Shown piece after piece: positions 14,074-48,606 of a stretch of DNA of 50,497 nucleotides (positions are counted from its first letter, which is position 1; every line of letters starts with the position of its first letter). The stretch is taken from assembly GCF_006483455.1 (NCBI RefSeq), contig NZ_PPPU01000058.1, positions 1 through 50,497 of the forward strand. The letters run 5' to 3'. The translations under genes were made by a program, and so were the position numbers. A model generated the notes under the pieces. The model ran no database searches. It worked only from the letters and a program-made list of their open reading frames with translations, and was not told the DNA's origin. Source of the DNA: Methylomonas koyamae. GTDB taxonomy: Bacteria > Pseudomonadota > Gammaproteobacteria > Methylococcales > Methylomonadaceae.

Positions 14074-14955
14074 TCAGCGCTTGGTCGGCAAATGCCCTGC
14101 CATGCCGGTGGTTGCCGGCGGCGGGTTGGCTGCGACCTTAGGGGCTTCGAACCCGAAACTGGCGATGCAGTTGACGCCGCCAACCAGTTCGTCGTCGGGA
14201 TTGGGTAGCGTCATGCGCACGGTGAAACTGCCGCTGGCCGGATCGATTAATGGGTCGACTTTGGTAACGGTTGCTTTGACGACTTTCTTGGCCGGCAATT
14301 CAGGCCGCACTTCCACTTCCAGGCCAGGCTGAATCAAACCGAAGTATTCGGTAGGGGCAATCAATTCGACGCGCAACGGATTCACTTGGGCTAGTTTCAT
14401 GATGGCGCGATCGCTTACCGATTCGCCCGGCATGGCATAGCGTTCGATAACCACGCCGTCGATTGGGCTTTTGATGGTTTTCACTTCAAGCTGAGCTTTG
14501 GCCAGTTCCAAGGCCAGCGCCGCCGAATTTTTACGCTCGGTGGCTTTTTTCAGTTCGATTTCCGCCAACGCGACTTCGGTTTCGACCTTATCTTTTTCGA
14601 TTTGTGAAATAACATTGGTGGTGAACAGGCTGCGATAACGGGTGCGATTCCGCGTGGCGTAATCCAATTTCACTTTCTGGTTGCGCAAATCGCTGTTGGT
14701 TTCGGCATCGGCCTTGGCCTGATTGAATTTTGCTCGTTCCACCGAGGCCTCCAATTGCACGACCGCCTGACCTCGGCTGACGCGGTCGCCTTTATCGACT
14801 AGCAAGGTCTCTACGATTCCGGCTACCGGGCTGCTCAACTCTACATACATTTCCGGTTTGACCATGCAATCCAGGTTGGCGGCGGAGACGTCAGCACGAT
14901 TGAGAAGGAGCCCTGGTACTGCGCAGATTAAGAATAGCCGGTTGATTCTACTCAT
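14074..14955 (-). CDS. HlyD/RND-type periplasmic adaptor protein
   Basis: A protein of 293 residues with a signal peptide (about 1-25, ending DVSAAN). The lipoyl halves are visible around VELSSPVAGIVETLLVDKGDRVSRGQAV and IKSPIDGVVIERYAMPGESV, flanking an alpha-helical hairpin (about 85-155) and followed by a beta-barrel domain. Such adaptors bridge an inner-membrane engine and an outer-membrane channel. Here no RND pump or ABC transporter lies next to it; the neighbours are the SecA-like ATPase and two other proteins with HlyD segments. It is the last gene of a six-gene minus-strand cluster and sits 83 bases after the SecA-like gene. The Pro-rich tail after the barrel is unusual but short. 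Confidence 0.88.
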   Translation of the reverse strand: MSRINRLFLICAVPGLLLNRADVSAANLDCMVKPEMYVELSSPVAGIVETLLVDKGDRVSRGQAVVQLEASVERAKFNQAKADAETNSDLRNQKVKLDYATRNRTRYRSLFTTNVISQIEKDKVETEVALAEIELKKATERKNSAALALELAKAQLEVKTIKSPIDGVVIERYAMPGESVSDRAIMKLAQVNPLRVELIAPTEYFGLIQPGLEVEVRPELPAKKVVKATVTKVDPLIDPASGSFTVRMTLPNPDDELVGGVNCIASFGFEAPKVAANPPPATTGMAGHLPTKR

Positions 14956-15038
14956 GTCGTTTAAAAAGTGTGGCGATTGGCCTGATTGGGTTGCAGATGC
15001 CGTTTTTTAGCAAAAACGCCGGCAGCAGGCTACGGCCG

Positions 15039-19173: not shown

Positions 19174-19194
19174 GGCTGAACCTCTTCGGCGCTA

Positions 19195-20943
19195 TCACCA
19201 GGACCAAATCCACAGACGTAACCAAGCCAGCATTTCGTGACTCCAAATCCACAACCAGCTGGCGCGGCCGGTCTCGATTTTGCCGACGCCTTCCATGCCG
19301 GGCCTTAACAGCTCGGGGGCGTTTTCCAGACTGGCTTCGACGCGGAATATGTTTCTCCCGCTATCGGTCTTCGCCACGGCGGTGATTTTTTGGACCACCA
19401 GGCTGAACGTTTGACTCGGCATGCTTGCCAGCACCAACGAACCCTTTTGACCTTCGCGCACATACGAAATTGCGCTTTCATCGACTTTGAGGATGATGCG
19501 GTAACCTTCCAGCGGCGCGATTTTGAACAAGGTGCTGCCGCGATCCACCGGCGATCCCAGTTTTTGGCTCAAATCGCCCTCGATCACCACCCCATCGAAA
19601 GGGGCGGTCAAGACGATCTTTTGCAATTGCTGACGGGTAAGTTCCATTTCCGCGTCGGCCTGATCGATTTGAGCGCTAATCACCCGTACCTTGACCAGAT
19701 CGCCGCTGGACAATGCTTCGCGATATTCGCGGCGGAACTTCTGTAATTGGCCGTCCAGCTTATTCAATTCCAACTGCAGTTCGGCATCGTCCAGGCTTGC
19801 CATCACTTCGCCCTGGCGTACCGTATCGCCGGCGCGTACCGCGGCCGATTGCAAAAATCCGGAAATTGGCGCCGCGACCACACGTTGAATTTTGCCCTCC
19901 AGCACGGCGTCGGCCGTCACCCGAAAATCGCCGCGCAGTATCGAGGCAAGCAGCAGAAACACCAGCAGACCAACGCCGGTGAGCTTGAGCGCCAATCCTT
20001 TTAATCCGAAAAATTCTTTCAGGCCTTGCTTCAGACTAGCGCCCATCTTGGTCGTCAAGGCCTGCTCGTCGATTTTTTTGAGTGCCATGTAGGGCGCGAT
20101 CAAAGCCAGTGCCTGTTCGCACAGGCGGACGCTGCGGCTGTCGAAGGGGCGCTGTTCGCTACGCAAGAGTGTGACCGCGCCGATGAATTCGCCGCAATGC
20201 AGCATAGGTAGGGTCAATAACGAACCGTAACCGTACTTTCTCGCCACTTCCAGGTGAGCCCGTTGAATGATGGCCGAAACGGTGTTGGGCACTACCACGA
20301 TGCTATCCTGCTCGATCGCTTCATCCATCGCATCAGCGATCTTTTGCAGCAGATTCGTCTGCGGGTCGAGCTGTGCGTTGTGCGAAATAGCGACGACCTT
20401 GGTGTAATTGTCGTGAAATTCGCCAATGGCCACCCGCTCGCAATCCAAGGTCTGCGCCAGTTCCGTCGCCAGCCGAATCAGAACTTCAGGGTAGCTGTTC
20501 TGCTCCATGCAGCCGGCCAGCAGGTTGACGACCGCGGCGTAAAAATCGTCGCTCAACTGTGATTGGCCCTGAGCCAATTGCCACCATTGCACGCTTTGCT
20601 GCAACGTGTCGAAAACAGCTTGCTGACGCTCAACGGCTGAGTGTTGCAACTTGAGGGCGATTACGCCCAATAACGCAGAACCTACCACGACCGGCATGGC
20701 GAAAAAGTCGCAACGCGTTTCGTCCGGCTGCAACGCATCAATCATGCTAGCGGGTTGATTCGTCGCGAGTGCGCGCTGGCAAATCGGCGACAGATCGCCC
20801 GGCGTCGCGCCATCCGCAAGCCATTTCGCCACGGGTCGCATTTTTTTGGTGCCGGGCTCCAGCGCCATCAGGGCGGCGGCCTGCGTGTCCGGTACCTGTT
20901 GGCACAGGATGTTCAACCATTGCTGAGCGAAGCGGTTACTCAT
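19195..20943 (-). CDS. GAF sensor domains fused to HlyD-like periplasmic adaptor
   Basis: A protein of 582 residues. The N-terminal half is cytoplasmic with a degenerate GAF-like region (about 20-130) and a better GAF domain (about 150-290: LIRLATELAQTLDCERVAIGEF and GYGSLLTLPMLHCGEFIGAVTLL). One membrane helix follows (about 318-337), then a periplasmic HlyD arm with the lipoyl halves PISGFLQSAAVRAGDTVRQG and LTAPFDGVVIEGDLSQKLGS around a helical hairpin. It ends in an odd Trp-rich tail (ASWLWIWSHEMLAWLRLWIWSW) that could be a second membrane anchor. Joining a ligand-binding GAF to an export adaptor suggests that secretion is gated by an internal signal. It overlaps the HDOD gene upstream by 4 bases. 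Confidence 0.87.
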   Translation of the reverse strand: MSNRFAQQWLNILCQQVPDTQAAALMALEPGTKKMRPVAKWLADGATPGDLSPICQRALATNQPASMIDALQPDETRCDFFAMPVVVGSALLGVIALKLQHSAVERQQAVFDTLQQSVQWWQLAQGQSQLSDDFYAAVVNLLAGCMEQNSYPEVLIRLATELAQTLDCERVAIGEFHDNYTKVVAISHNAQLDPQTNLLQKIADAMDEAIEQDSIVVVPNTVSAIIQRAHLEVARKYGYGSLLTLPMLHCGEFIGAVTLLRSEQRPFDSRSVRLCEQALALIAPYMALKKIDEQALTTKMGASLKQGLKEFFGLKGLALKLTGVGLLVFLLLASILRGDFRVTADAVLEGKIQRVVAAPISGFLQSAAVRAGDTVRQGEVMASLDDAELQLELNKLDGQLQKFRREYREALSSGDLVKVRVISAQIDQADAEMELTRQQLQKIVLTAPFDGVVIEGDLSQKLGSPVDRGSTLFKIAPLEGYRIILKVDESAISYVREGQKGSLVLASMPSQTFSLVVQKITAVAKTDSGRNIFRVEASLENAPELLRPGMEGVGKIETGRASWLWIWSHEMLAWLRLWIWSW

Positions 20944-21812
20944 GGCGCTGAAGCTCCCTGATTCGCAATGAAATTCAGTGGGCAGAGCATTTGATAAACC
21001 TCATCGAGGTGCTGGGCTATTTCTTGCGCCACCACGTCTTTGGCGTTTTCCGGAATCGGGCCAAATTGGTCATCTTTGAATGGCTCGGCTGCAAGGGGTT
21101 TCGAAAAATGCTCCGGTGCGTTGAAAAGTTGTTGGGCGAAGTAGATCAGATAAGTCTCGTTCCGGTAGGGCGGTGCGCTGAGTTCAGGGTGCAGGTAGTG
21201 GCCGATAATGTGCGAATAGACTTCCGGCAAATGCCAAAGCCGCGTCAGCTCCGCTCCGAGCTGGCAATAATCAAAACCGAATATTTTGCGCTCTTGGGCG
21301 TCAATCGGCAGTCCCTGGTCGCGGCTGGTTAGCAATGCTTCGAGAGCTTGCTCCGGTGCTTTGACGAACATGGCGGCATGACCGATTTCAAGTAACAGGC
21401 CCAGCGTAAAAAAACGGTTTCCAGCCGGGACGTGACTGAGTCTGGCGATAGTTTGGCAGGCAATCCCCGATTCGATGGCCTGTCGCCAGAACTGGCGTAA
21501 ATCCAGTACCGGGCTGGGCATATTGCAAAAGGTGCGCATGCATAAGCTGCTCAACAACAAATCATGGAGTTGAATGGTACCGATCAGGCTGATCGCCTCG
21601 TCAAGATCTGCGGCCTGGCGCTTGAAGCCGAAGAACTCGCTGTTGGCGATGCGGATCATCCGGATGGCTAACATCGGGTCGGTTTGCAAGGCTTTAACGT
21701 AATCGTCGATTCTTGCGCCGGGTTTTTCCAGTAAAACCCGGATTTTCAGATAGACCTCGGGCATGGAAATCCTTTCGGCCAGATCGCATAGAAAACGCTG
21801 CTCGGCTCTCAT
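20940..21812 (-). CDS. HDOD domain signalling protein (second of a pair)
   Basis: A protein of 290 residues made almost wholly of an HDOD domain: LAERISMPEVYLKIRVLLEKP, a helical core with IRIANSEFFGF, ISLIGTIQLHDLLLSS, and the remnant catalytic segment LLLEIGHAAMF. The HD dyad is replaced, which is normal for this non-catalytic family. HDOD proteins act as regulatory partners in two-component, chemotaxis and cyclic-dinucleotide circuits. It lies 7 bases after its paralogue and overlaps the GAF-HlyD gene, so it is in the same operon. The two HDOD proteins are similar in length and order, and are probably an old tandem duplication. Confidence 0.87.
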   Translation of the reverse strand: MRAEQRFLCDLAERISMPEVYLKIRVLLEKPGARIDDYVKALQTDPMLAIRMIRIANSEFFGFKRQAADLDEAISLIGTIQLHDLLLSSLCMRTFCNMPSPVLDLRQFWRQAIESGIACQTIARLSHVPAGNRFFTLGLLLEIGHAAMFVKAPEQALEALLTSRDQGLPIDAQERKIFGFDYCQLGAELTRLWHLPEVYSHIIGHYLHPELSAPPYRNETYLIYFAQQLFNAPEHFSKPLAAEPFKDDQFGPIPENAKDVVAQEIAQHLDEVYQMLCPLNFIANQGASAP

Positions 21813-21819
21813 GTCGGAT

Positions 21820-22961: not shown

Positions 22962-25900
22962 ATGCATTCGAAATTGCGTCAAACACATTATCACTCCAAA
23001 CCGATTCTGGAGGAGTTGGAATCCCGGCAATTGTTTTCTGCCGGCGTCGAAGGTCTGCTCACCGAGCCGATGCTGGACCCGAACGCGGTCTATGCCAATG
23101 CCAATCCGGCGCCGGTCGCGGAAACCCAACAGCCGCCGGCACAGAATTCCGGCAATCAAGCTCCCCGCAATGAAATCGTATTTGTCGACACTCGCGTGGA
23201 CGGCTACCAGACGCTGCTCAACGATATCAAAAGCAGCGACGTCTCCGACCGCAACCTGGAAATCATTGCGCTGGATAGCAACAGTGACGGGATCCAACAA
23301 ATCAGCCAAGTTCTGGCCGAGCGGGACAACCTGGATGCGGTGCATATCATCTCCCACGGCAGCGACGGCAGCCTGGATTTGGGTAACAGCCAACTCAATT
23401 TCGACACCTTAATTCGGAACCAAACCGACATCAGCGCCTGGGGCGATTCGTTCAATCAAAACGGCGACATCCTGCTGTACGGCTGTAACGTCGCCGAAAC
23501 CCAGTTCGGGCAGAGCTTTGTCGACTATTTGGCCGGGATTACCAATACCGAAATCGCCGCATCGGCGGATGCTACCGGCAGCGCGGATTTGGGTGGCGAT
23601 TGGCAGCTGGAATATCAAACCGGAGAAATCGACACGCAAATTGCGCTTAGCGAAGCAGAGCAGAGCAACTGGGAAGGTTTGATGGCGGTTACCGCCAATG
23701 GCTCTATTTCATCGACCAATTCGACCAGTGCATCTAGTCTCACTTGGTCACATGGTGTCGCGACCGGGACCAATAGCGCATTGTTTGTGGAGATCGCTTT
23801 AGACGATCCAACTGTCAATGTTAACAGCGTGACGTACGGTGGAGTCGCGTTAACTCAAGTCGGCAGAAGCGCGAACAACCATGCTGTGGAAATTTGGACT
23901 TTGGTAAATCCCACTGTAGGTTCGGCTAATATAGTGGTTAGCTTGTCAGGCACGACCGGCGTAGCGGCAGGTGCAACAAACTACAACGGTGTAGCTCAAT
24001 CTACAGCCTATTACGGGTTTGTCGGTGCTAGCGGCACGGGCACCACGGCTTCCGTAACGGTAGCCAGCGCCAGTGGCGATCTGGTTATCGACTCTCAATA
24101 TTGGCAAGGCATACCTAGCGGCGGCGCCGTGGGAAGCGGTCAAACACTTCTGTGGCAGAGGCAAAATGCCGTGTTGACTGGCGGCTCAACCTCCGAAGCC
24201 GGAGCGGCCTCTGTGGTTATGAGCGGCAGCTTTTCGTCTTCCGCCCAATGGGAAATCGCGGCGGTGTCGATCAAGGCTGCATCAACTTGGGCGCCAACTA
24301 TCACCACCAGCGGCGGTTCGTTGGCCTATACCGAGAATGCTGCAGCGACCATTATCGATAGTGCTTTAACTGTCTCCGATGCTGACGGTTCTTATCTAGC
24401 CAATGCCACCGTCAGTATTTCCTCCGGTTTTGTCAGTGGCCAAGATACGTTGGCGTTTACCAACCAAAACGGCATCACCGGCAGTTGGAACGCCAGTACC
24501 GGCGTCCTGACCCTGACCGGCAACGCCAGCGCTGCCACTTACCAAACGGCATTGCGCAGTATTACTTACGTGAATTCATCGGATGCGCCGAGTACCGCGA
24601 CACGCACAGTCTCGTTCACGGTTAACGACGGCTCCTCCTCCAGTGCCACCGCAACCCGTAATATCACAATCACGGCAGTCAATGACGCACCGGTCAATAC
24701 CGTGCCCAGTGCCCAAACCACCAATGAAGACACGAACAAGGTGTTCTCATCGGCTAATGGCAATGCGATTACCATTGCCGATGTCGATGCCGGCGGTGCC
24801 AACAACGAAATTACCTTGACGGTAACCAACGGCACGCTGACTTTAGCCGGCACCACCGGCCTGACCTTTGTAGCCGGCGACGGCACGGCCGATGCCACCG
24901 TGACTTTCCGGGGCACGGCCAACGCTATCAACACCGCTTTAAACGGCCTAACCTATACGCCGACCGCGAACTACAACGGCAGCGCCACCTTGACCGTGTC
25001 GACCAAGGATTCAGTGTTATTGAGTCTGGATATCGACACCAGCCTGAAGGGCCGCTATACCTTCGATAACACCGGTGCGTTGGGCACCGACACTAGTCCG
25101 GCCGCCGCCTATAACGGTACTGTGGTCAACGGCACATCGGTTAACGACGCTACACGCGGCAATGTACTCAGTTTGGCTGGCGACGGTTATATCCAAACCA
25201 CCGGCCGTTACGGTGACTCGGCGAATGTTACGTTGGCCGCTTGGGTGAATGCCAGTAGCGTCGATACCAACGGAGGCGAAGTCATTTCGCTCGGCGATAG
25301 TGTCGCGGTTGGTTTAAACGGTAGCGGTCAGGTACGCGGCTTTTTCTACAGCGGCGGCACCTGGACAGAAACCGTTTATTCAACATCTATAGTAGGAACC
25401 GGCTGGCACCATTTGGCTTACTCGTTCAATGATGCCGGCAATGCGGCCACACTCTATGTTGACGGAGTACAGGTAGGCACATTAGGCACGACTGCCTCTA
25501 TCTCTTACACCTTGGGCGCAAATAGCTTTATAGGCAAACATGGCAACAACCTGACTACAGTTGATTTTTCCGGCAAGATTGACGATGCTCGGATCTACAG
25601 CCGTGCTCTCACGGCAGATGAAATCGCCACGCTGGCTTCCGATTTGACCAAAACCGACACCGATACGGTCGCGGTTACCGTGGCGGCAGTCAACGACGCC
25701 CCCAACGATCTTTACGCCATAAATGGCATGGCCGAATCCAGCCTAGTTGGTGTCTATGGCTTCAATAACCCATCCAGCCTGGGCCGCGACGATGCCGGCA
25801 ACAATGCGCCGATAACCTTCTACGGCAATCCGGGCCAGACCATAGGTCCCAGCGGCTCCGGCGCACTTGATCTAGCGGGCGGATCATCCGGGCAATATGG

Positions 25901-28900
25901 CGATATTGTCGGCATCACCACCGGTGGTGCCATGACCTTTGCCGCTTCAGTAAGGTTCGATAGCACCGGCGATTGGCAGCGGGTGTTCGATTTCGGCCAA
26001 ACCACTAGCGGCGGAATCGGCAACGTCTACGTCGGTCGGGAATGGAACACCAACAATCTGACCTTTACCATTGAAAAAAACGGCGTATATACCTATCGCG
26101 CCACCGCTAGCAATGCCATCAGCAATGGCTCATGGCTGCATTTCGCCGCGACGGTAGATGCGACAGGCAATATGAACCTCTACGTCAATGGCAACTTGGC
26201 GGCGTCCACCGCCGGCGTGGCATTGGAGACAGGCGTTCGCAGCAATAATTTCATCGGCAAATCGCATTGGGGCGGCGACGCGGCGTTTGATGGCGCCATC
26301 GACAATTTCGTCGTCGCCAATGGCGTGATGAGCGCGTCGCAAGTGGCGGCACTGTATCAACAAACCAGCGGCTTTACCGTCGCCGAAAACGCCGCCAACG
26401 GCACTGTGATCGGTACGGTGGTGGGCTTCGATGTCGACGCCAGTGCCAATCCCACTTACAGCTTAACCGACAGCGCCGGTGGGCGCTTTGCTATCAACGC
26501 AACCAATGGCACCCTGACGGTAGCGGATGGTTCCTTGTTGAATTACGAGGCGGCTACCAGTCATTCCATCACCGTGCAGGTCACCGACTCCCTGGGTGCA
26601 AGCTATTCTGAAACTTATACGGTCAACCTGTCGAACGTGGTCGAGGCACCTTCAGCAACCAACCTTAGCGCGTCCGAAACCTATACCGAAGATACTCCGC
26701 TTAATCTGACCGATATCGTCATAACGCGCGGCGACAGCGCCACCGTTACCGCCACCTTGACCTTATCCAATGCCGCAGCCGGCAGTTTGAACACCGGCAC
26801 TTCAGGCGCGGTGACCTCAACGTACAATGCCGCTACCGGCGTTTGGACCGCCAGTGGCGCAGTGGCCGACGTCAACACCTTATTGGCCGGCCTGACCTTT
26901 ACGCCAGCAACCAACTTCAATAGCAATTTCACCATTGCTACCAGCATCAGCGACGGCGTGCTGGCGGCTGTGACCGGTACTAAAGCGATGACGGGTATAG
27001 CGGTGAACGATGCGCCGGTTATCAATGTCGTTAGCGCGAGAACCACAAATGAAGACGTAGTTAAGCGTTTTTCGGCTTGGATTGGTAATGCCATTACGAT
27101 CTCTGATGCTGATGCCGGTTCCTCTAATCTGGAGATGACGATTTCCGCTACTAACGGCACAGTTACTTTAGGCGGGTTGGTCGGATTGACATTTTCTGTT
27201 GGCGATGGCACGGCAGATACCACAATGACGTTCCGTGGCACTCTAGCAGCCATCAACACGGCTTTGGATAACATCGATTACATGCCAGACCCCAATTACA
27301 GTGGGCCGGGCGGTATGCAATTTACACTCAATGATTTAGGCAATACCGGAACCGGTGGCGGGCTGGTAGTAACTGCGACTCAGGTCATCACCGTCAATCC
27401 AGTCAACGACGCTCCGACGGCAACGATCACCCCGGCCAGCTATAGCGCCACCGAACAAACCAGCCTAACTCTACACGGTACCGGGCTGAGTATCGCCGAT
27501 GTCGATGCCGGTAGTTCCAGCGTGCAGGCAACCCTATCGGTGGTATCCGGCACCTTGACAGCCAGCGCCGGCACGACGGGGGTGACCGTATCCGGCTCCG
27601 GCACCAGTTCAATCACTTTGACCGGTAGCCTCAGCCAAATCAACGCTCTGCTGGCCGGTAATGCCAGCGGATCGTTGAGCTATATCATCAATTCCGATAC
27701 CCCGCCGGCCACCGATACCTTGACCCTGAGCGTCAACGACCAGGGCAATACCGGCTCGGGTGGCGCACTGACCGGTTTTGATGTGGCGACGATCAACATC
27801 ACGGCGGTCAACGATGCACCGGTCAATACCATTTACGGTGATGGCACCATTGTGCCGGAAGACTCGGTAATTCAATTGCTGGGCTCGGTGGTGATCGCCG
27901 ATGCCGACAGCGGTTCGGGTACGCTGACCACCACACTATCGGTCAGCGCCGGCGCCGGGGTGCTTTCCGCAACCTCCGCCGCCGGTGTGACGATCAGCGG
28001 TAGCGGCACCAATACTTTAGTACTGTCCGGCGATGTGGCGTCGATCAACGCCTATTTTGGCTCGGCGGCCACCGCACCGGTGTTTACCGCCACCGCTGAC
28101 TATAACGGCGCGGTTTCTTTTACCGTGGTGACCACGGACAACGGCAATTCCGGCAGCGGCGGCGCCTTGTCGGATAGCGATACCATCAGCGGTTCAATCT
28201 CGGCCGTTGCCGATATCGTTAACGACAGCGTTACCACCAATGAAGATACCCCGGTCACCTTCGACCCACTGGCTAACGATACCTTTGAAAATTCCGGCCG
28301 CTATATTTCGGCTATCGACGGCACCAGCGTCAGTAGCGGCCAAACGGTCGCCATCACCGGCGGCAGCGTCACACTTAATGCCAACGGCAGCTTGACCTTC
28401 ACGCCCACCGCCAACAGCAACGGCGCGACCAGCTTCAGCTATACCGTGACATCCGGAGTAACCACCGAGACCGCAACCGTTGCGCTGACGGTCAATCCGG
28501 TCAACGACACCCCGGTACTGACCAGCGCCAGCCTCACCTTGAACGAGGGCCAAACAGTCACCCTGACGGCGGCCAACTTCGGCGTGACCGATCCGGATAG
28601 CAGCAGTCTTACCTACACGCTCGGCAGCATCTCGGGTGGTTATTTCCAGCTGACGACCAACCCCGGCGTCGCCGTCACCAGTTTCTCCACTGCCCAACTC
28701 GGCGCTGGTCAGGTGCAGTTTGTCGATGACGGCAACGAGGTTGCGCCGAGTTTCAGCGTGACCGTGAGTGATGGTGTTTTGAATTCCAATACCCTGGCAG
28801 CCACGGTGAACTACACCTCTGTCAACGACGCGCCTCATGTCACCTGGGCAGGTAATTATCCGTTCGGCACCGATGAAGACACCGCTTCCGCAGGGATTAG

Positions 28901-31900
28901 CGTCAATACCTTAATCATGAACGGACCTGTCGGTTCAGTCGGATATAGTGATGCGGATGGCAGTTCTTTGAAGGGTATGGCGGTCATTGCGAAGACGGGT
29001 AGTGGCAGCTGGGAGTATTCGACTGACGGCGTAAGCTGGAACGACTTTGGTACGGTATCCAACACCCATGCCTTGCTCTTGGAGAGTAATACGCAAGTTC
29101 GTTATGTCCCGAACGGTTCCGGTGCAGAGGTAGCCCAACTGCAAATTCGCGGCTGGGATCAAACGACGGATACGGCATCCTCAAATCTTGCCGCATCCTA
29201 TGGCAATGCATCGATCAACGATTACGATCATGCCTATTCTTATGAAATTGCAACGGTGACATGCACGGTTTCAAGCATCAACGACGCACCGACCCTGGCG
29301 AACGCCATCGCCGATCAGAACGCCACCGAAGACAGCGCCTTCTCGTTCCAGATTCCGGCCAATAGCTTTGCCGATATCGATGCGGGAGATAGCTTGAGCT
29401 ACAGCGCCACGCTGGCGGATGGCTCCGCGCTGCCGAGTTGGCTGGCCTTCAACCCGGTTAACCGAACCTTCAGCGGCACACCGTTGAACGCTGACGTCGG
29501 CAGCATCAGCGTCCGCGTCACCGTCACCGACAGCAGCAACGCCAGCGTGTTCGATGACTTCACGATTACCGTCGCCAACACCAACGACACACCAACCGTG
29601 GCGAACCCCATCGCCGATCAGAACGCCACCGAAGACAGTGCCTTCTCGTTCCAGGTTCCGGCCAACACCTTCGCCGATGTCGATGTGGGCGATGCACTGA
29701 GCTATACCGCGACCTTGGCCGATGGCTCGGCACTGCCGAACTGGCTGACGTTCAATGCCGCCACGCAGACTTTCTCCGGTACGCCCGCCAATGCCGACGT
29801 GGGCTCGATCAGCGTCCGCGTCACTGGTGCCGACAACAACGGTGCCACGGTTTACGACGATTTCGCCCTGACCGTGACCAATGTCAACGATGCGCCGGTT
29901 TTGAACTTGACTGACAATGCCTTTACTTTTGTGGAGAACGCCTCCCATGTCAGGATTGGCAGCAGCGCCACGCTGGTTGATGTTGACTCACCCAATTTCG
30001 CCGGCGGGACCTTGACCGCAATAATAACCGGCAATGGCACAGCGGAAGATCGACTCTACTTGGTCACTCAAGGAAGCGGCCCCGGCCAGGTTCAAGTCGT
30101 GAACGCCAATGTCTTCATTGATGGAAATTTGGTTGCTACCACGGTGGGCGGAGCAGGGGCAGGAAGCCCGTTGGTTGTATCTTTTACCGCGAATGCCGAT
30201 GCGTCCGCTGTGCAAGCGGTCGCCAATCGTGTGAGTTTCCGTAATGTCAGCGAGAACCCCAGCGGCTTACAACGCACGGTGGAGATGGTGGTGACCGATG
30301 GTGATGGCGGCACCAGTAACACCGATTCGGTGCTGATCAACGTCACCCCAGTCAACGACGCACCCGTTATGACCGCTGCATCGCTCACGCTGAACGAAGG
30401 CCAGACCGTCACGCTGACAGGTGCCAACTTCAGCATCAGCGACCCTGACAACACCAGTTTCACCTACACGGTGAGTAATGTTACAGGCGGTTACTTCCAG
30501 TTGAGCGGCAATGCCGGTGTCGGTGTCACCAGCTTCAGCAGCGCGGATCTGACCGGCGGTCTGGTGCAGTTCGTCGACGACGGCAACGAGGTCGCGCCGA
30601 GTTTCAGTGTCACGGTCAATGATGGCGCCCTCGACTCCAATACTCTGGCCGCTACGATCAATTATACGGCCGTCAACGACAATGCCCCGGTGATCAGCTC
30701 CGGCAGCAGCGCCAGCGTGAATGAGAACAGCGCCGCCAGCACGGTGGTCTACACCGCCAGCGGCAGCGATACCGACGGGGATAGCCTGAGCTGGAGTCTG
30801 AGTGGAACTGACGCGGCCTTGCTGAGCATCGACGCCACCACCGGCGAAGTGACCCTCAACGCCGCGGCGGATTACGAAAGCAAAACCAGCTACAGTTTCA
30901 ACGTCGTGGCCAGCGACGGCACGTTCAGCAGCAGTCAGGCCGTGACTTTGACGGTCATCAACCTAAACGACAACACTGTCAGCACCATCACCGATAGCAA
31001 CTCTGGCTCGAACACCGTCAATGAGAATGCTGTTAACGGCACCGTGGTCGGTATCACCGCCCTGGCGACCGATGCCGATGCCGGTGCCACAATCAGCTAT
31101 AGCCTGACCGACGATGCCGGCGGCCGCTTCGCCATCGACAGCAATACCGGCGTGGTCACCCTTGCCGACGGCAGTCTGCTGGACTACGAGACCGCCACCA
31201 GCCACAGCATCACGGTGCGGGCGACCAGTTCGGATGGTTCAACGAACAGCCAAAGCTTTACGATCGCTGTCAGCAACCTGAATGACAATCCTGTCTCGGC
31301 GATAAGCGACAGCAACGCTTCCGCCAACAGTGTGGCCGAGAATGCCGCCAATGGCACCGTGGTAGGCATCACGGCTCTAGCCACCGACGCCGACACCGGT
31401 GCCACGATCAGCTACAGCCTCAGCGACGATGCCGGCGGCCGTTTCGCCATTGACAGCAATACCGGAGTGGTTACCGTCGCCGACGGCAGCTTGCTGGACT
31501 ACGAGACCGCCACCAGCCACAGCATTACGATACTGGCAACCAGTTCGGACGGTTCCACCAACAGTCAGACCTTCAGCATTGCCGTGACCAATGTCAACGA
31601 CAATCCGGTCAGCACCCTTACGGACAGCAACGCCACGGCGAACAGTGTCGCCGAGAACGCCGCCAACGGCACAGTGGTCGGCATCACGGCTCTAGCCACC
31701 GACGCCGACAGTGGCGCGACCATCAGTTACAGCCTCAGCGACAATGCCGGCGGCCGCTTCGCCATCGACAGCAGCACCGGTGTCGTCACCGTCGCCGACG
31801 GCAGTCTGCTGGACTACGAGAGCGCCACCAGCCATAGCATCACGGTGCTGGCGACCAGTTCGGATGGCTCGACCAACAGTCAGACCTTCAGCATTGCCGT

Positions 31901-33257
31901 GACCAATGTCAACGACAATGCCCCGGTTCTAAGCAGTGCCGATATGACGTTAAGCGAAGGTCAGACTGTGACTCTTGCTGTATCCAACTTTGGCGTCAGT
32001 GATCCGGATAACACCAGTTTTAGCTATATTGTGAGCAATGTTAGCGGCGGTTATTTCCAAATAGCCAGTAATCCAGGTGTCGCCATCACCAGCTTCACAA
32101 CCGCCCAGCTAGTCGCCGATCAAATTCAGTTTGTCGACGACGGCGATGAAGCGGCGCCGAGCTTCAGTGTTACGGTCAATGATGGCGCGTTGGAATCCAA
32201 TACCGTGGCCGCGACGATCAACTATACCGGCGTCAACGATGCGCCAGTCATCGGTAGCGCGACACTGAGCTTGAGCCAAGGCCAGACCGTTACGCTGAGT
32301 GCCGCCAATTTCGGCGTCAGCGACCCTGATAGCGCCAGCTTCACTTACACAGTCTCCAGCGTCAGCGGCGGTTACTTCCAATTGACCGGTAACCCCGGTG
32401 CCAGCGTCACCAGCTTCAGTAGCGTCCAGTTGGCTGCCGGCCAAGTGCAATTTGTCGACGACGGCAATGAGGTGGTTCCGAATTTCAGCGTCACCGTCAA
32501 CGATGGCTGCGCGAGTTCTAACCTGGTGAATGCCGAAATTACCTACTCAAGTAGTGACGATAACACAAACGGTTTTCGTGAAATAATTAGATACAATCAG
32601 ACAAATGTTTCGGATCGTAAAGAGCAAACCGAGCAGTCTGTAGGCGATAAAGTACTAAGTTCCGCCGCTATTTTCGATCAAGTTAATAATGTTTTTGGCG
32701 AAAGTGTTGCTGTTAGTCAAATAGTCAATAACGAGATTGATGGCATAAATAACGTTGATATTTTAGTTTCGGTGGATCAAGGTTTATCGGAAGTTGACAA
32801 AAGTAATGTCAAGTTATCAGCTTATGTGCCGGATAATCTATTGCAGGAACAGCGTCGTGATAGCGTCAGAAAACAGAACTTTCAATTAAAAAACGCCGCT
32901 TTGGAGCAATACAGCATCGATACCGAATCTGTCCTGTCCGAACAAGAGGAAATAGAGTTTTGGAATAGATTGGATCACATTCGCCAGCAGATGAGCGATC
33001 CTGACGCCGTTGCGGATGCTAACCCGGTAAACGTTAAAATCATACTGGGTACTAGCGCGAGCCTGACTGCCGGTTTTGTGAGCTGGATACTACGCGCAGG
33101 ATCGCTGATGGCGAGCTTTATGTCTACCGTGCCGTTGTTGAAACGGTTTGATCCTTTGCCGGTTCTAAGATCCGCCAGGAAAGATGCGGATTCTGTAGCC
33201 GGAAGCAAAAAAGATCGATCATCAAACCCGGCCGACTCGGAAGATAGCGATAAATAA
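22962..33257 (+). CDS. Giant LEPR-XLL / DUF4347 / LamG / cadherin-like surface protein
   Basis: A protein of 3431 residues. An N-terminal LESRQLFSA at 19-27 fits the LEPR-XLL sorting motif, there being no ordinary signal peptide. DUF4347 follows at about 70-240, with HIISHG (His132) and ILLYGCNVA (Cys175). Then come a beta-sandwich (about 245-440), Ig/cadherin-like repeats, two LamG-like domains (about 690-870 and 920-1130), further cadherin-like, dystroglycan-type (NDAPTLANAIADQNATEDSA) and VDDGNEVAPSFSVTV repeats to about 3190. The last 240 residues are non-repetitive and end with a hydrophobic segment (LTAGFVSWILRAGSLMASFM) and a charged tail. It is likely a calcium-stiffened adhesin or matrix protein, divergent from putative export genes and followed after 48 bases by a cyclic-di-GMP enzyme gene. 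Confidence 0.92.
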   Translation: MHSKLRQTHYHSKPILEELESRQLFSAGVEGLLTEPMLDPNAVYANANPAPVAETQQPPAQNSGNQAPRNEIVFVDTRVDGYQTLLNDIKSSDVSDRNLEIIALDSNSDGIQQISQVLAERDNLDAVHIISHGSDGSLDLGNSQLNFDTLIRNQTDISAWGDSFNQNGDILLYGCNVAETQFGQSFVDYLAGITNTEIAASADATGSADLGGDWQLEYQTGEIDTQIALSEAEQSNWEGLMAVTANGSISSTNSTSASSLTWSHGVATGTNSALFVEIALDDPTVNVNSVTYGGVALTQVGRSANNHAVEIWTLVNPTVGSANIVVSLSGTTGVAAGATNYNGVAQSTAYYGFVGASGTGTTASVTVASASGDLVIDSQYWQGIPSGGAVGSGQTLLWQRQNAVLTGGSTSEAGAASVVMSGSFSSSAQWEIAAVSIKAASTWAPTITTSGGSLAYTENAAATIIDSALTVSDADGSYLANATVSISSGFVSGQDTLAFTNQNGITGSWNASTGVLTLTGNASAATYQTALRSITYVNSSDAPSTATRTVSFTVNDGSSSSATATRNITITAVNDAPVNTVPSAQTTNEDTNKVFSSANGNAITIADVDAGGANNEITLTVTNGTLTLAGTTGLTFVAGDGTADATVTFRGTANAINTALNGLTYTPTANYNGSATLTVSTKDSVLLSLDIDTSLKGRYTFDNTGALGTDTSPAAAYNGTVVNGTSVNDATRGNVLSLAGDGYIQTTGRYGDSANVTLAAWVNASSVDTNGGEVISLGDSVAVGLNGSGQVRGFFYSGGTWTETVYSTSIVGTGWHHLAYSFNDAGNAATLYVDGVQVGTLGTTASISYTLGANSFIGKHGNNLTTVDFSGKIDDARIYSRALTADEIATLASDLTKTDTDTVAVTVAAVNDAPNDLYAINGMAESSLVGVYGFNNPSSLGRDDAGNNAPITFYGNPGQTIGPSGSGALDLAGGSSGQYGDIVGITTGGAMTFAASVRFDSTGDWQRVFDFGQTTSGGIGNVYVGREWNTNNLTFTIEKNGVYTYRATASNAISNGSWLHFAATVDATGNMNLYVNGNLAASTAGVALETGVRSNNFIGKSHWGGDAAFDGAIDNFVVANGVMSASQVAALYQQTSGFTVAENAANGTVIGTVVGFDVDASANPTYSLTDSAGGRFAINATNGTLTVADGSLLNYEAATSHSITVQVTDSLGASYSETYTVNLSNVVEAPSATNLSASETYTEDTPLNLTDIVITRGDSATVTATLTLSNAAAGSLNTGTSGAVTSTYNAATGVWTASGAVADVNTLLAGLTFTPATNFNSNFTIATSISDGVLAAVTGTKAMTGIAVNDAPVINVVSARTTNEDVVKRFSAWIGNAITISDADAGSSNLEMTISATNGTVTLGGLVGLTFSVGDGTADTTMTFRGTLAAINTALDNIDYMPDPNYSGPGGMQFTLNDLGNTGTGGGLVVTATQVITVNPVNDAPTATITPASYSATEQTSLTLHGTGLSIADVDAGSSSVQATLSVVSGTLTASAGTTGVTVSGSGTSSITLTGSLSQINALLAGNASGSLSYIINSDTPPATDTLTLSVNDQGNTGSGGALTGFDVATINITAVNDAPVNTIYGDGTIVPEDSVIQLLGSVVIADADSGSGTLTTTLSVSAGAGVLSATSAAGVTISGSGTNTLVLSGDVASINAYFGSAATAPVFTATADYNGAVSFTVVTTDNGNSGSGGALSDSDTISGSISAVADIVNDSVTTNEDTPVTFDPLANDTFENSGRYISAIDGTSVSSGQTVAITGGSVTLNANGSLTFTPTANSNGATSFSYTVTSGVTTETATVALTVNPVNDTPVLTSASLTLNEGQTVTLTAANFGVTDPDSSSLTYTLGSISGGYFQLTTNPGVAVTSFSTAQLGAGQVQFVDDGNEVAPSFSVTVSDGVLNSNTLAATVNYTSVNDAPHVTWAGNYPFGTDEDTASAGISVNTLIMNGPVGSVGYSDADGSSLKGMAVIAKTGSGSWEYSTDGVSWNDFGTVSNTHALLLESNTQVRYVPNGSGAEVAQLQIRGWDQTTDTASSNLAASYGNASINDYDHAYSYEIATVTCTVSSINDAPTLANAIADQNATEDSAFSFQIPANSFADIDAGDSLSYSATLADGSALPSWLAFNPVNRTFSGTPLNADVGSISVRVTVTDSSNASVFDDFTITVANTNDTPTVANPIADQNATEDSAFSFQVPANTFADVDVGDALSYTATLADGSALPNWLTFNAATQTFSGTPANADVGSISVRVTGADNNGATVYDDFALTVTNVNDAPVLNLTDNAFTFVENASHVRIGSSATLVDVDSPNFAGGTLTAIITGNGTAEDRLYLVTQGSGPGQVQVVNANVFIDGNLVATTVGGAGAGSPLVVSFTANADASAVQAVANRVSFRNVSENPSGLQRTVEMVVTDGDGGTSNTDSVLINVTPVNDAPVMTAASLTLNEGQTVTLTGANFSISDPDNTSFTYTVSNVTGGYFQLSGNAGVGVTSFSSADLTGGLVQFVDDGNEVAPSFSVTVNDGALDSNTLAATINYTAVNDNAPVISSGSSASVNENSAASTVVYTASGSDTDGDSLSWSLSGTDAALLSIDATTGEVTLNAAADYESKTSYSFNVVASDGTFSSSQAVTLTVINLNDNTVSTITDSNSGSNTVNENAVNGTVVGITALATDADAGATISYSLTDDAGGRFAIDSNTGVVTLADGSLLDYETATSHSITVRATSSDGSTNSQSFTIAVSNLNDNPVSAISDSNASANSVAENAANGTVVGITALATDADTGATISYSLSDDAGGRFAIDSNTGVVTVADGSLLDYETATSHSITILATSSDGSTNSQTFSIAVTNVNDNPVSTLTDSNATANSVAENAANGTVVGITALATDADSGATISYSLSDNAGGRFAIDSSTGVVTVADGSLLDYESATSHSITVLATSSDGSTNSQTFSIAVTNVNDNAPVLSSADMTLSEGQTVTLAVSNFGVSDPDNTSFSYIVSNVSGGYFQIASNPGVAITSFTTAQLVADQIQFVDDGDEAAPSFSVTVNDGALESNTVAATINYTGVNDAPVIGSATLSLSQGQTVTLSAANFGVSDPDSASFTYTVSSVSGGYFQLTGNPGASVTSFSSVQLAAGQVQFVDDGNEVVPNFSVTVNDGCASSNLVNAEITYSSSDDNTNGFREIIRYNQTNVSDRKEQTEQSVGDKVLSSAAIFDQVNNVFGESVAVSQIVNNEIDGINNVDILVSVDQGLSEVDKSNVKLSAYVPDNLLQEQRRDSVRKQNFQLKNAALEQYSIDTESVLSEQEEIEFWNRLDHIRQQMSDPDAVADANPVNVKIILGTSASLTAGFVSWILRAGSLMASFMSTVPLLKRFDPLPVLRSARKDADSVAGSKKDRSSNPADSEDSDK
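29280..29885 (+). repeat. Two 303-bp tandem coding repeats (dystroglycan-type cadherin domains)
   Basis: Two adjacent near-identical 101-residue units starting AACGACGCACCGACCCTGGC at 29280 and AACGACACACCAACCGTGGC at 29583. Both encode the ATEDSAFSFQ and ALPxWLxFNxxxxTFSGTP pattern. The close similarity of the DNA suggests recent duplication. Confidence 0.8.
30978..31922 (+). repeat. Three 315-bp tandem coding repeats (cadherin-like domains)
   Basis: Three consecutive units of exactly 315 bases (105 residues) begin at 30978, 31293 and 31608. Each encodes a stretch like NGTVVGITALATDAD, GGRFAIDS and VADGSLLDYE. Long runs of identical DNA between units indicate recent expansion or gene conversion and make this a site where copy number may vary between strains and where assemblies may collapse. 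Confidence 0.88.
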
Positions 33258-33305
33258 GTATCGATTTATTTTGGTTTAGTATTTTGCCGTAGTTTTTTTA
33301 ATATC

Positions 33306-36290
33306 ATGGATTCAGTAAAAAATACCATTGGCGTTTTGTTGCCGGCAATGCGAATAAGTTTTGCATTGGTAATGCTGGCAATCTGCTTGTTATTTGCGGC
33401 GGAAATGCTGGGGTTTATGCCTGATAAGTCTAAATTTCTATTAGAATCGCGCAAGCATGTTAGCGAGTCTCTGGCGATTCAGTTTTCCACTTTGGCTGCT
33501 GATCAAGATCCTCAAAAAATAGAGAGGATGCTCAATTTATTGATTAAGCGTAATTCCGATATTTTATCTTCCGGTATTCGGCTCCAGAATGGAGAATTGA
33601 TTTTTCAAACTGGGGACCATAGTCAGGAGTGGCGCGATTACGATAGTCAAAAATCGACCTCGACTTATTTGGTGGTTCCAATTTATCGAAATTCTGAAAA
33701 ATGGGGCGAAATCGAATTTAAATTTGTACCGATATCCGGTGAGTCGTTATCGGATTTTCTTGAACATCCCAGCTTTAAAATAGCGATATTTTTTCTGGTC
33801 GTCGGCTTCTTTATTTATCTGGCGTTCATGCTCAGAACTTTAAAAATGCTTGATCCGAGTGCCGTGATTCCGGATCGGGTCAACGCGGCTTTCGATACGC
33901 TGGCAGAGGGGGTCATTATCATCGACGAGCGGCAGCAAATTGTTCTGGCGAATCGCTCGCTACTGCAGAAGATCGGCAGTCCTATCGGTGCCTTACTCGG
34001 CAAAAATGCTTCCAAACTGAATTGGAAAAGTGCGGATGAAACCGACTCCGAGGTTTATTTGCCTTGGCAAACCGTGCTGAAATCAGGGAAAAGTTCCAAA
34101 GGCGCTCATTTGATGTTGGTTAATCCCAGCGGCGAAAGCTTTAAATTCGCGATCAACGCCTCGCCGATTTGGGGTGGGAACGATACCGCGCAAGGCGTGT
34201 TGATAACACTCGACGATATTACGGAGCTGGAGGAGCGTAACAGTCGACTACAGACCATGGTCAACAGGCTTGAAGAGAGTCAGGCGCAAGTCCAACAGCA
34301 GAATAAGGAATTGCATTTTCTCGCGACCCGCGATTCGCTGACTGGCTGCTTGAACCGTCGGGCTTTTTTCGAACTTTTCGATAAAGCCTTTAATGAAGCC
34401 TTACAAAACGACCTTGAGCTGTCCTGCGTCATGGTGGACATCGATCACTTCAAGGCGGTAAACGACAACTACGGCCATGCGACCGGAGATGTGGTCATCA
34501 AACTGCTGGCCGAGGTGCTGACCACCAATACCCGCAAGGTCGACTTGGTGGGGCGCTATGGCGGCGAGGAATTTTGCCTGGTGTTGCCCGGTTTGAGTGT
34601 GCAGGAGGCCGTTACGGTTGCAGAGCGGATTCGTCTGCGGATTAAGGCTGAATCGGCCGCCCGCTTCGAAAATGGACCCTGGGTTACCGCCAGCCTGGGG
34701 GTGGCCGGCATTGTCGACAAACCGGCCGATCCAGCGGAATTGAACAAGTTTGCCGACGAGGCGCTCTATGTTGCCAAGGAATCCGGTAGAAATAGGGTCG
34801 TCCGCTGGCAGTTAAAAAATCAGTTTTCCGAAAACGCCAAACCGGAAACGCCTCTCCCAGAGAGCCAGCCGGCTACCGGCAACGATACCGCTTTAACAAG
34901 CGGCACCGTTTCCGAGTTGCAATCCCGTGTCGACGAACTGGAACTGATCGCGTCGCAGATTTCCAGCGAACTCGATTATTCCAAGCACTATGACCAACTG
35001 ACCGGTTTGCCCAATCAGGTTTTGTTCTACGACCGGGTGCGCCAAGTCATCGAGCGGGGGCAACGCTATAGTCATTTGGCGGCGATATTCGTGGTCGATA
35101 TCGGTATGTTCGGCATGATTAACGCATCCTTGGGGAATGTTGCCGGCGACCATATTTTGCAAGAAGTTGCCAATCGGCTGAATTCTACCTTCAGAAAAAG
35201 CGATGACATCTCGCGGCTAACGCTCTCTCGGATCGGTGGGGACGTGTTTGCGGTCTTGATCCCCGAGTTGCCCAATAAAGAGGTCATCACTTGGATGGTC
35301 GAGCGCTTGATGGCGGCCTTGGCGACGGCGATCGAAGTCGATCAAACCAGTATTTACCTTACCAGTCACGTCGGCATCAGCGTATATCCCGCCGATGCCA
35401 GTACGGTAGACAGCTTAATCAACAACGCGATTGTCGCGAAAACCTTTTGCAAAAAGACAACATCCGAAACCGGTTTCCAGTTTTTCGACAACCACATGCA
35501 GGATTTGTCGATCCGGCATTTGCGTCTGGATAAGGAGATACGCAACGCGATTCAAAACCAGGAATGGGAGTTGTTCTATCAACCGAAAATGGACATCGCC
35601 AACAAAACCATTGTCGGGGTGGAAGCTTTGATTCGTTGGCGGCACCCTAGCCGTGGGCTATTGGCGCCGTTCGAGTTTATTGATTTTGCCGAGCAGAGGG
35701 GTTTGATTGTCGCGATTGGAGAATGGGTGATCCGAGCCGCGTGCGAAAAGTTGAAGTATTGGAGCGAACTGGGATATTCGGACCTTTGTATTGCGGTGAA
35801 TTTATCCCCGGTGCAACTAAAGCAAGACGATTTTGTTGACAGGGTTTTTGCCATCATTGCGGAGTATCAGATTTCGCCGCGGCAACTGGAATTAGAAGTG
35901 ACCGAAACCACCCTGATGAGTAACTTTCAGGCGGCATTGACCTCGCTAAAGCGGCTCAGCAGTAGAGGAATTGCAATATCGATTGATGATTTTGGCACGG
36001 GTTATTCCTCTCTCAGCTATCTGAAAAATTTGCCGGTCGATAACCTCAAAATCGATCGCTCTTTTATCAAAGATCTATGCCACGACGAGAATGATCAAAA
36101 AATCGTCAAGATGTTGATCAACATTGCCCACTCAATGAGTATGATCGTGATTGCCGAAGGCGTGGAAACACAGGGCCAGTTCGATATTCTGGCCGACTAC
36201 GGTTGCGACGAAATTCAGGGATATTTGCTCAGCCAACCAGTACCTGCCGGGGAAGTGATACACATGTTGGCTAAAGGACGGCCCAATTAG
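33306..36290 (+). CDS. Membrane PAS-GGDEF-GGDEF-EAL cyclic-di-GMP protein
   Basis: A protein of 994 residues. Helices at about 12-36 and 158-177 bracket a periplasmic sensor region. A PAS domain (about 193-310) and a coiled coil lead into a first GGDEF domain (from about 341) with an intact GGEEF active site near 420. A second GGDEF-like domain (from about 561) has GGDVF, so it is probably inactive as a cyclase. The EAL domain (about 745-990) retains EALIRW, EVTETTL, DDFGTGYSSLSYL and IAEGVET, so phosphodiesterase activity is likely. It both can make and break cyclic-di-GMP. The 48-base gap after the giant adhesin gene implies cotranscription and control of adhesion. Two GGDEF domains in one chain are uncommon. 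Confidence 0.93.
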   Translation: MDSVKNTIGVLLPAMRISFALVMLAICLLFAAEMLGFMPDKSKFLLESRKHVSESLAIQFSTLAADQDPQKIERMLNLLIKRNSDILSSGIRLQNGELIFQTGDHSQEWRDYDSQKSTSTYLVVPIYRNSEKWGEIEFKFVPISGESLSDFLEHPSFKIAIFFLVVGFFIYLAFMLRTLKMLDPSAVIPDRVNAAFDTLAEGVIIIDERQQIVLANRSLLQKIGSPIGALLGKNASKLNWKSADETDSEVYLPWQTVLKSGKSSKGAHLMLVNPSGESFKFAINASPIWGGNDTAQGVLITLDDITELEERNSRLQTMVNRLEESQAQVQQQNKELHFLATRDSLTGCLNRRAFFELFDKAFNEALQNDLELSCVMVDIDHFKAVNDNYGHATGDVVIKLLAEVLTTNTRKVDLVGRYGGEEFCLVLPGLSVQEAVTVAERIRLRIKAESAARFENGPWVTASLGVAGIVDKPADPAELNKFADEALYVAKESGRNRVVRWQLKNQFSENAKPETPLPESQPATGNDTALTSGTVSELQSRVDELELIASQISSELDYSKHYDQLTGLPNQVLFYDRVRQVIERGQRYSHLAAIFVVDIGMFGMINASLGNVAGDHILQEVANRLNSTFRKSDDISRLTLSRIGGDVFAVLIPELPNKEVITWMVERLMAALATAIEVDQTSIYLTSHVGISVYPADASTVDSLINNAIVAKTFCKKTTSETGFQFFDNHMQDLSIRHLRLDKEIRNAIQNQEWELFYQPKMDIANKTIVGVEALIRWRHPSRGLLAPFEFIDFAEQRGLIVAIGEWVIRAACEKLKYWSELGYSDLCIAVNLSPVQLKQDDFVDRVFAIIAEYQISPRQLELEVTETTLMSNFQAALTSLKRLSSRGIAISIDDFGTGYSSLSYLKNLPVDNLKIDRSFIKDLCHDENDQKIVKMLINIAHSMSMIVIAEGVETQGQFDILADYGCDEIQGYLLSQPVPAGEVIHMLAKGRPN

Positions 36291-41866: not shown

Positions 41867-41907
41867 TTAAAATGGACAAAACATCCATTTCTAATGAGGG
41901 GGACTTT

Positions 41908-42428: not shown

Positions 42429-42438
42429 GGCTATACCC

Positions 42439-44772: not shown

Positions 44773-44775
44773 GCC

Positions 44776-45018: not shown

Positions 45019-45029
45019 GAACCGCAACC

Positions 45030-46292: not shown

Positions 46293-46294
46293 TC

Positions 46295-46969: not shown

Positions 46970-46970
46970 G

Positions 46971-47699: not shown

Positions 47700-47780
47700 C
47701 GGCAAAGGGAATCCCTCGAGCATTGTGCAATCACGTTCACGAGGCTTGCCGGACTCTCTTGAATTGTTGCCTTGGCGGCA

Positions 47781-48116: not shown

Positions 48117-48167
48117 TGGGTTGCCTATTAATTCAGTCTGAATTTATTCTATTGCGAGTAAGGCTAC

Positions 48168-48605: not shown

Positions 48606-48606
48606 C

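Follow-up and report, generated by a model that had tools for sequence, protein, structure and literature searches.

Which function unites a compact operon for membrane and export proteins with the giant protein encoded opposite to it? The question is raised by a contig of Methylomonas koyamae (NZ_PPPU01000058.1 of assembly GCF_006483455.1, from a genome of 4.5 Mb), whose 50,497 nucleotides constitute the window analysed here and in which a first-pass annotation had proposed a dedicated export system for a protein of 3,431 residues. From the comparison with other genomes, the genes of this operon very probably serve giants that carry a short N-terminal tag of the LEPR-XLL type, and the cluster as a whole is probably a dedicated system for exporting or displaying such giants. 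Its defining gene encodes a fusion of a PqqD-like domain, an intramembrane M50 protease and a HlyD-type adaptor, here called M50-I to distinguish it from its counterpart in a sister system, II, which has its own version of the tag. That I and II are two parallel, undescribed secretion systems, each reading its own LEPR tag and exporting many of the largest bacterial proteins without an ATP-binding cassette (ABC) transporter or a classical signal peptide, is a broader proposal to which we give an even chance. The features of the locus are the following:

22692-21820, minus strand: HDOD-domain protein 1, 290 aa (Pfam PF08668, 176 bits)
21812-20940, minus strand: HDOD-domain protein 2, 290 aa (Pfam PF08668, 141 bits)
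20943-19195, minus strand: GAF-GAF-HlyD adaptor, 582 aa, a core gene (Pfam GAF and HlyD_D23/HlyD_3)
19173-17029, minus strand: fusion of a PqqD-like domain (RiPP recognition element, RRE; RiPPs are ribosomally synthesised and post-translationally modified peptides), an intramembrane M50 protease and HlyD, 714 aa, core and defining gene
17036-15039, minus strand: short SecA, 665 aa (Pfam SecA_DEAD, SecA_PP_bind and SecA P-loop)
14955-14074, minus strand: HlyD-type periplasmic adaptor, 293 aa (PF16576, 69.8 bits; TIGR01730, 131.5 bits)
22962-33257, plus strand: giant, the candidate substrate, 3,431 aa (LEPR-type tag, DUF4347, LamG, cadherin/Ig repeats, C-terminal hydrophobic segment)
23001-23087, plus strand: N-terminal LEPR-XLL-type tag of the giant, PILEELESRQLFSAG... 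(40.3 bits with a tag profile that includes the window row)
33306-36290, plus strand: PAS-GGDEF-EAL protein, 994 aa, starting 48 bases after the giant

The six packed minus-strand genes opposite the giant, as first described, were recovered gene by gene at these positions, and their domains were found by Pfam, M50 and PqqD below cut-off. Their frames overlap by 8 bases (SecA and M50) or by 4 bases (GAF-HlyD and the second HDOD protein) and are otherwise separated by gaps of 7-83 bases, and 269 bases lie between the operon and the divergent giant.

The association between tag and M50-I protein was followed in two main sets of genomes, and in both the co-occurrence anticipated by the first-pass annotation was found. 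Among 61 related genomes, with M50-I taken as a match above 200 bits, the protein occurs in 13, and a tag profile (29 columns and 27 rows, built from giants beside M50 genes) detected tagged giants in exactly these 13, the 48 others having none. The weak members of the 13 are G002 (a frame of 10,762 aa) and G012 (6,975 aa), both at only E ~0.09, while G029 is counted on a fragment of 594 aa from a broken assembly, its M50 match covering residues 381-714 only; with E allowed up to 1, tag matches appeared in fifteen other genomes of this set, none of them in a frame longer than 890 aa. Among 299 Pseudomonadota, with M50-I set at 500 bits or more, the protein is present in 32, the window genome included, and frames of 1,000 aa or more that carry a tag (tags I and II told apart by eye within the loci read) occur in 25 of these 32 genomes versus 2 of the 267 others. 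The two exceptions, G097 and G114, have the second version of the tag (ALEPRILFDATV and ALEPRVMFDGAA, respectively) beside an M50-HlyD protein of the system II type. As for distance, an M50-I gene is found no more than 10 kb from 17 of 34 tagged giants and, for three more, further away on the same contig. In 148 genomes from the phylum of a Desulfomicrobium locus (L068), M50-I matches above 800 bits were obtained in the query genome (G359) and in one other (G451), both with tagged giants, and G465 encodes a variant tag, LEDR, beside a divergent M50-HlyD protein with an outer-membrane factor. In one genome, G074, three contigs (C1, C25 and C29) each carry an M50-I gene with a short SecA next to it, and tagged giants are encoded on C17, C25 and C29. 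LEPR-like N-termini are also common in Planctomycetes, a group outside the genomes sampled.

The operon itself is conserved well beyond Methylomonas. A scan of genome contigs with an M50 profile yielded at least 548 relatives, of which the best 80 were kept, and to these 80 loci the counts below refer; according to their titles, they belong to Gamma-, Beta- and Alphaproteobacteria, Desulfobacterota, Nitrospirota, Myxococcota, Omnitrophota and Rokubacteria, and a tblastn search of plasmids with SecA returned alphaproteobacterial records at the top. GAF-HlyD adjoins M50 in 77 loci, the contigs of the remaining three beginning at M50, and the order GAF-HlyD, M50, SecA on one strand is kept in all 69 loci that show the three genes, so that the arrangement in the window is no chance product. 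A separate HlyD gene was found in 59 of the 80 loci, in 51 of them downstream of M50, and an outer-membrane factor in 10 with a narrow profile; in the clusters L024 and L046 this factor belongs to the OEP family. The GAF-HlyD protein of the window ends in a tryptophan-rich tail (19195-19260), which is similar in the GAF-HlyD proteins of its relatives. Five annotated records in which the giant is visible show a giant gene of 24-39 kb followed by GAF-HlyD, PqqD-M50-HlyD and short SecA, with a separate HlyD in four of them and sometimes an interposed DUF3467 or SapC gene. Two of these five giants are annotated as 'LEPR-XLL domain-containing', and the LEPR motif is present in all four whose starts were examined.

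Large frames are likewise a regular neighbour. Where at least 8.5 kb is available on either side of M50 (39 loci), a large acidic open frame of 900 aa or more was found in 31, versus 1 of 20 comparison regions, which are slightly shorter (19.8 kb against loci of about 22 kb) and whose positions, at round coordinates of seven genomes, were chosen by hand and not at random. One locus, L084, enters the count through an unrelated frame of 1,149 aa, its tagged giant being a separate frame of 907 residues from stop to stop. Among the 19 large frames with a visible start, 16 carry the tag; the other three are that of L097, whose start falls inside a repeat, and those of L084 (1,149 aa) and L086 (986 aa), which look unrelated.

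The tag of system I has the consensus E-x-LEPRxLLSAD, the E and R of its LEPR part being invariant, and NCBIfam NF012209 (LEPR-XLL, cut-off 17 bits) exceeds its cut-off in three of the five proteins scanned with it (L029, L031 and L096; 23.9-34.0 bits). The giant of the window is not matched by NF012209, and a profile from which the window and its nearer relatives had been taken out (10 rows removed, 17 left) finds its tag weakly, at residues 15-33, with 12.2 bits and an i-Evalue of 1.2e-5 in a two-sequence search; the position is therefore the same and the sequence divergent. The earlier attribution of an LEPR-XLL N-terminus holds, in the divergent form LESRQLFSAG. The accompanying statement that the giant has no ordinary signal peptide is borne out, as the most hydrophobic 19-residue segment within residues 1-90 averages only 0.45 on the Kyte-Doolittle scale; the N-terminal region has no hydrophobic core, and a hydrophobic stretch lies close to the C-terminus. 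By Pfam, the giant contains DUF4347, LamG, cadherin and Ig-like repeats, that is, repeats of the adhesin type. The C-terminal hydrophobic segment (33030-33167 in the window) resembles LRxGSLMASxLSTVPLWxxxDPLPVL and recurs in giants of distant organisms (L036, L084, L096 and L102); it is possibly an anchor. A universal C-terminal signal was rejected as a candidate, given that, of 46 large frames, only 5 have a hydrophobic hairpin and only 6 an IDW-like motif (versus 2.1% of internal windows for the latter); this motif lies near the C-terminus in the giants of L070, L093, L103, L107, L111 and L117. Two tagged open frames are very large for bacterial proteins (19,427 aa at G121:C115:112880 and 14,920 aa at G066:C1:2731711, both on the minus strand), and the annotated start of an Alisedimentitalea giant excludes its LEPR tag, which lies in frame just upstream (L030:1196-1282, minus strand). 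In the literature passages retrieved, LEPR-XLL is mentioned in connection with a single giant, a Vibrio protein of about 8,000 aa, and otherwise only as a protein name, with no transport machinery tied to it there.

The M50-I protein of the window is 80% identical to its counterpart in Methylomonas sp. LW13, which also has the cluster (locus L056). Scanned alone, it stays below the Pfam cut-offs (M50, 22.4 bits against 27.2; PqqD, 21.4 bits against 23.4), yet its zinc ligands, HExxH and N..P....D, are invariant in all 51 aligned relatives. Its first 400 residues, the PqqD-M50 region, align with the daptide protease model NF041824 over 372 of 379 positions with 135 bits (cut-off 300), and no daptide biosynthetic neighbours were found among the window open reading frames scanned. 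The AlphaFold model of the fusion (pLDDT 86.9, pTM 0.68) gave Foldseek top matches to MexA, MacA and AcrA, which cover the C-terminal HlyD half. It was an RRE fused to a peptidase that led to the daptide clusters (PMC10036551), and MpaB, the second RRE protein of these clusters, needs leader residues that include L(-7) and M(-4) (PMC10036551). The proposal that the LEPR tag is read by the PqqD-like domain (about residues 34-100 of the window protein) is based on this daptide precedent.

System II is built differently, and a natural control is offered by giants that carry DUF4347 and no tag. The system II loci read consist of a giant, an outer-membrane-factor lipoprotein, a HlyD protein, a second HlyD protein and an M50-HlyD protein, which scores about 110-130 bits to the M50 protein of the window, and no SecA was seen in them; the outer-membrane factor is usually present and belongs to the OEP family in L049, the only one scanned. 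Their giants start with ALEPRILFDGAA or close variants, defined here as tag II. In the 61-genome set, tag II (E <1e-3) was found in 11 genomes, all of them among the 12 with a II-type M50 protein, and in none of the other 49; the twelfth, G030, is 78% complete. Eight genomes have only the II-type M50, nine only type I and four both, and the tags follow the types throughout except in G030. A system II giant in G013 has a stop codon near its N-terminus (C1:1946044-1946496). DUF4347, on its part, matches in 21 of the 61 genomes, and three large DUF4347 proteins are without LEPR tag, one each in G058, G008 and G013. That of G058 has as its neighbour a type I secretion ATPase of the PrtD type (600 bits against a cut-off of 510), that of G008 has another ATPase of this type (736 bits) together with HlyD (379 bits) and TolC (227 bits), and that of G013 lies near TolC (273 bits), from which it follows that DUF4347 alone does not predict the system. 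Further matches stand outside this control (an untagged one in G016, whose frame is cut by the contig end, those of G001 and G014, and two of 81 residues in G034 and G005). DUF4347 was rejected as the export signal on the strength of these untagged proteins with type I components and of three genomes, G002, G012 and G057, with tagged giants lacking a DUF4347 match. The dedication of the genes to the giant, claimed at the outset, is thus supported by near-perfect co-occurrence, by adjacency and by the untagged DUF4347 control.

In profile comparison with solved SecA, the short SecA extends to residues 605-608 of the Bacillus subtilis protein; aligned pairwise with the housekeeping SecA of its own genome (916 aa), it stops near residue 668. 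By the usual domain limits of SecA, it keeps the two nucleotide-binding domains (NBD1 and NBD2), the preprotein-binding domain (PBD) and the first scaffold helix, and is without wing domain, two-helix finger and C-tail. The structural model (pLDDT 85.9, pTM 0.82) has its top TM-scores with SecA bound to SecY (0.78-0.80) and its top E-value with free B. subtilis SecA. Neither housekeeping model is reached (TIGR00963, 542 of 800 bits; NF009538, 548 of 814 bits), and the four SecA2 models TIGR03714, TIGR04397, TIGR04221 and NF012136 are all below cut-off. In a tree of 73 rows, 17 full-length rows lie on one side of a branch with 100% support in the Shimodaira-Hasegawa-like approximate likelihood ratio test, and short SecA forms a separate clade in which lineages are mixed; this tree was built by a quick method with that support value only, its classes follow row length, and two of the full-length rows are identical. 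The full-length rows comprise housekeeping proteins, two from Lactobacillus and one from Paenibacillus, the latter three being the sole Gram-positive rows. A SecA2 system was rejected on this placement and because SecY2 is missing, no SecY being present in the annotated clusters read. SecA was found in 72 of the 80 loci (six lack it and two cannot be judged), and the Walker A lysine is kept in 68 of these 72 copies, one of the other four being cut off. The short SecA on plasmid pRlX3 of Rhizobium johnstonii (L033:3429-5413) is split over two overlapping frames and apparently broken. The natural protein ends at about the same place as the Escherichia coli SecA fragments N649-N668, which have high lipid-stimulated ATPase activity and open SecYEG channels (PMC5456053).

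Assembled into a mechanism, these components suggest the following sequence of events. The PqqD-like domain of the M50 protein would bind the tag in the cytoplasm, in the way known from RiPP recognition elements and their leader peptides, while the M50 part would anchor the complex and may trim the tag. The short SecA would feed the unfolded chain across the inner membrane, probably through SecYEG, a route made probable by its keeping the first scaffold helix and lacking the finger; the HlyD proteins, with a TolC-type channel, would then provide the path over periplasm and outer membrane. Within this scheme, SecA may be an accessory, having been lost or made likely inactive in some lineages. 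That the tag is a recognition signal and the M50 protein its reader is plausible, at about even odds.

Several observations weigh against the assignment as a whole. NF012209 fails on the window giant, and the Fisher probability of the association among the 299 Pseudomonadota (6e-28) overstates it, because giants beside M50 genes supplied the tag profile and because related genomes are not independent. In seven of the 32 M50-I genomes no tagged frame reaches 1,000 aa: the longest are of 944 aa in G108 and 997 aa in G062, and in G281, G137, G177, G297 and G153 such frames are short or absent. M50-I is on a different contig from 14 of the 34 tagged giants or is missing from their genome, and 8 of the 39 full-flank loci are without a large frame over a distance of about 10 kb. 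In the 148-genome set, G468 has an M50 relative of 427 bits and no tagged giant, and G445 is so far a true exception, in that its small contigs carry two tagged frames and the threshold applied gave no M50 relative. As regards the accessory genes, the separate HlyD was not found in 21 of the 80 loci, 11 of which extend more than 6 kb after M50, and no SecA was detected beside M50 in 6 of the 78 loci that can be judged, nor is one present in 3 of 18 M50-I genomes (G052, G225 and G338). Three loci have lost the Walker A and DEAD motifs of the ATPase and kept the rest of the system (L079:12330-13865, L123:11802-13268 and L094:7315-8943), and their SecA-like proteins are, judging from the motifs, likely inactive as ATPases. 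Since SecA is missing or motif-less in a minority, it cannot be the sole motor. Finally, E. coli SecA of this length shows 0% translocation of pOmpA (PMC5456053). The first-pass view that SecA and the separate HlyD are parts of the system accordingly stands in so far as both are usual, and has to be restricted for that minority and for HlyD, present in only 59 loci.

Among other explanations, an unlikely one, though the most serious, is that another machine, such as housekeeping SecA-SecYEG or a co-translational route, takes the giants through the inner membrane and that the cluster acts only afterwards, its HlyD and M50 proteins holding, trimming or passing them on to the outer membrane and its short SecA being a chaperone. 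The minority without SecA or without its ATPase motifs, the absence of SecA from the system II loci read and the end of short SecA at the point where E. coli fragments stop translocating all fit this alternative; it is at odds with the lack of a recognisable Sec signal peptide on the giant, with the N-terminal location of the PqqD-like domain in the M50 protein, which suits a cytoplasmic tag (on the predicted topology), and with the retention of the Walker lysine in nearly all SecA copies. Far less probable is a module for signalling or stress, built on GAF, HDOD and M50 proteolysis, whose link to the giant reflects a shared history on genomic islands. The GAF, HDOD and cyclic di-GMP genes in the window, the plasmid location of giants and cluster in several alphaproteobacteria and the mixing of lineages in the SecA tree are what this explanation would predict, whereas joint inheritance alone would not require a tag of a few residues on a huge protein to track the system and its type, nor the three untagged DUF4347 giants to keep to type I components.

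Equally remote, or slightly more so, is a RiPP-like locus in which the M50-PqqD protein cuts a tagged precursor and HlyD exports the small product, the body of the giant being a carrier or by-product. M50 proteases remove RiPP leaders or tails (PMC10885120), and the PqqD-M50 half resembles, below cut-off, the daptide protease; the tagged frames, however, mostly run to thousands of residues, that of the window has adhesin-type repeats, and the annotations of the clusters read name no RiPP-modifying enzyme. A canonical type I secretion system or tripartite pump was rejected, the ABC, resistance-nodulation-division (RND) or major facilitator superfamily (MFS) partner being absent from the operons read. 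No such partner was found in the core operon of the loci read, and no ABC transporter in the operon of the five annotated plasmid-type clusters read, other loci not having been checked systematically; the ABC operon for peptide uptake that lies 6 kb from one of the annotated clusters is unrelated to it. For the window, the earlier report of neither ABC transporter nor TolC was reproduced among its 24 open reading frames scanned, and so was that of no LapD or LapG, the GGDEF-EAL protein reaching 188 of 1020 bits for LapD and no LapG-type peptidase being present among those frames, to which the search for it was confined. They contain no outer-membrane factor either, and the window genome has 36 OEP matches elsewhere.

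The regulatory genes of the window do not travel with the system. Among the loci read, those of the Methylomonas type (six, L036-L041) alone showed HDOD genes, the plasmid clusters having none, and cyclic di-GMP genes were seen in few loci only, a GGDEF/EAL gene following the giant also in L045. The suggestion that HDOD and cyclic di-GMP control belongs to the system is therefore not supported; the HDOD proteins are possible local regulators, and the PAS-GGDEF-EAL protein possibly exerts local cyclic di-GMP control. Further along the window, on the plus strand (39302-50151), lie cas genes of Type I-E-like character (Cas3, Cse1, Cse2, CT1975/Cas7, Cas5, a Cas6-like CRISPR_assoc gene and Cas1), and between them (47820-48070) an 83-nt repeat in four imperfect copies, 60-75% alike, with a spacing of 84 and 42, which is no plain CRISPR array.

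If the broader proposal of two parallel, tag-reading secretion systems is true, LEPR-XLL, a named motif for which no stated role was found, would be a real export signal, recognised as RiPP enzymes recognise their leader peptides. The tie between tag class and gene cluster is in itself a testable claim about an N-terminal export signal, with its likely reader named, and a naturally finger-less SecA is a useful case for how SecA moves protein. The system is also widespread, occurring in over a tenth of the Pseudomonadota sampled (32/299) and in named genera such as Methylomonas.

Compared with known systems, type I secretion of giant adhesins such as LapA or SiiE has in common HlyD adaptors, a TolC-type channel in some clusters, huge repeat cargo and DUF4347 cargo; here, in contrast, the operons read have no ABC transporter, the signal is N-terminal and shared, and a SecA-like ATPase with an M50 protease takes the inner-membrane place. 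The accessory Sec system of Gram-positive bacteria (SecA2/SecY2, for serine-rich repeat adhesins) shares a second SecA apparently devoted to large surface proteins, whereas the clusters read have no SecY2 and their SecA is short, without the C-terminal third. The SecA copies of Lactobacillus, encoded with their own SecY, SecE and SecG, fall on the other side of the fully supported branch from short SecA. With the M50 proteases of daptides and epipeptides (NF041824 and NF058609) the system shares a PqqD/RRE-type domain and an intramembrane M50 domain (in the daptide model), the differences being that the proteins described here score below both cut-offs, are fused to a HlyD adaptor and are encoded with giants. 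Tripartite efflux pumps (RND, MFS or ABC pump with HlyD and TolC) have adaptors and channels of similar types, and a pump that is absent from the core operon here. The tags of three relatives match NF012209, 'LEPR-XLL domain', for which NCBI, as far as seen, names the motif only. In agreement with the first-pass annotation, which knew of no described system with these parts, none was found in searches of the open-licence literature and, provided that the function is indeed export, the predicted composition of an N-terminal tag, an RRE-M50-HlyD fusion and a truncated SecA, with no ABC transporter, would be unlike that of any known system.

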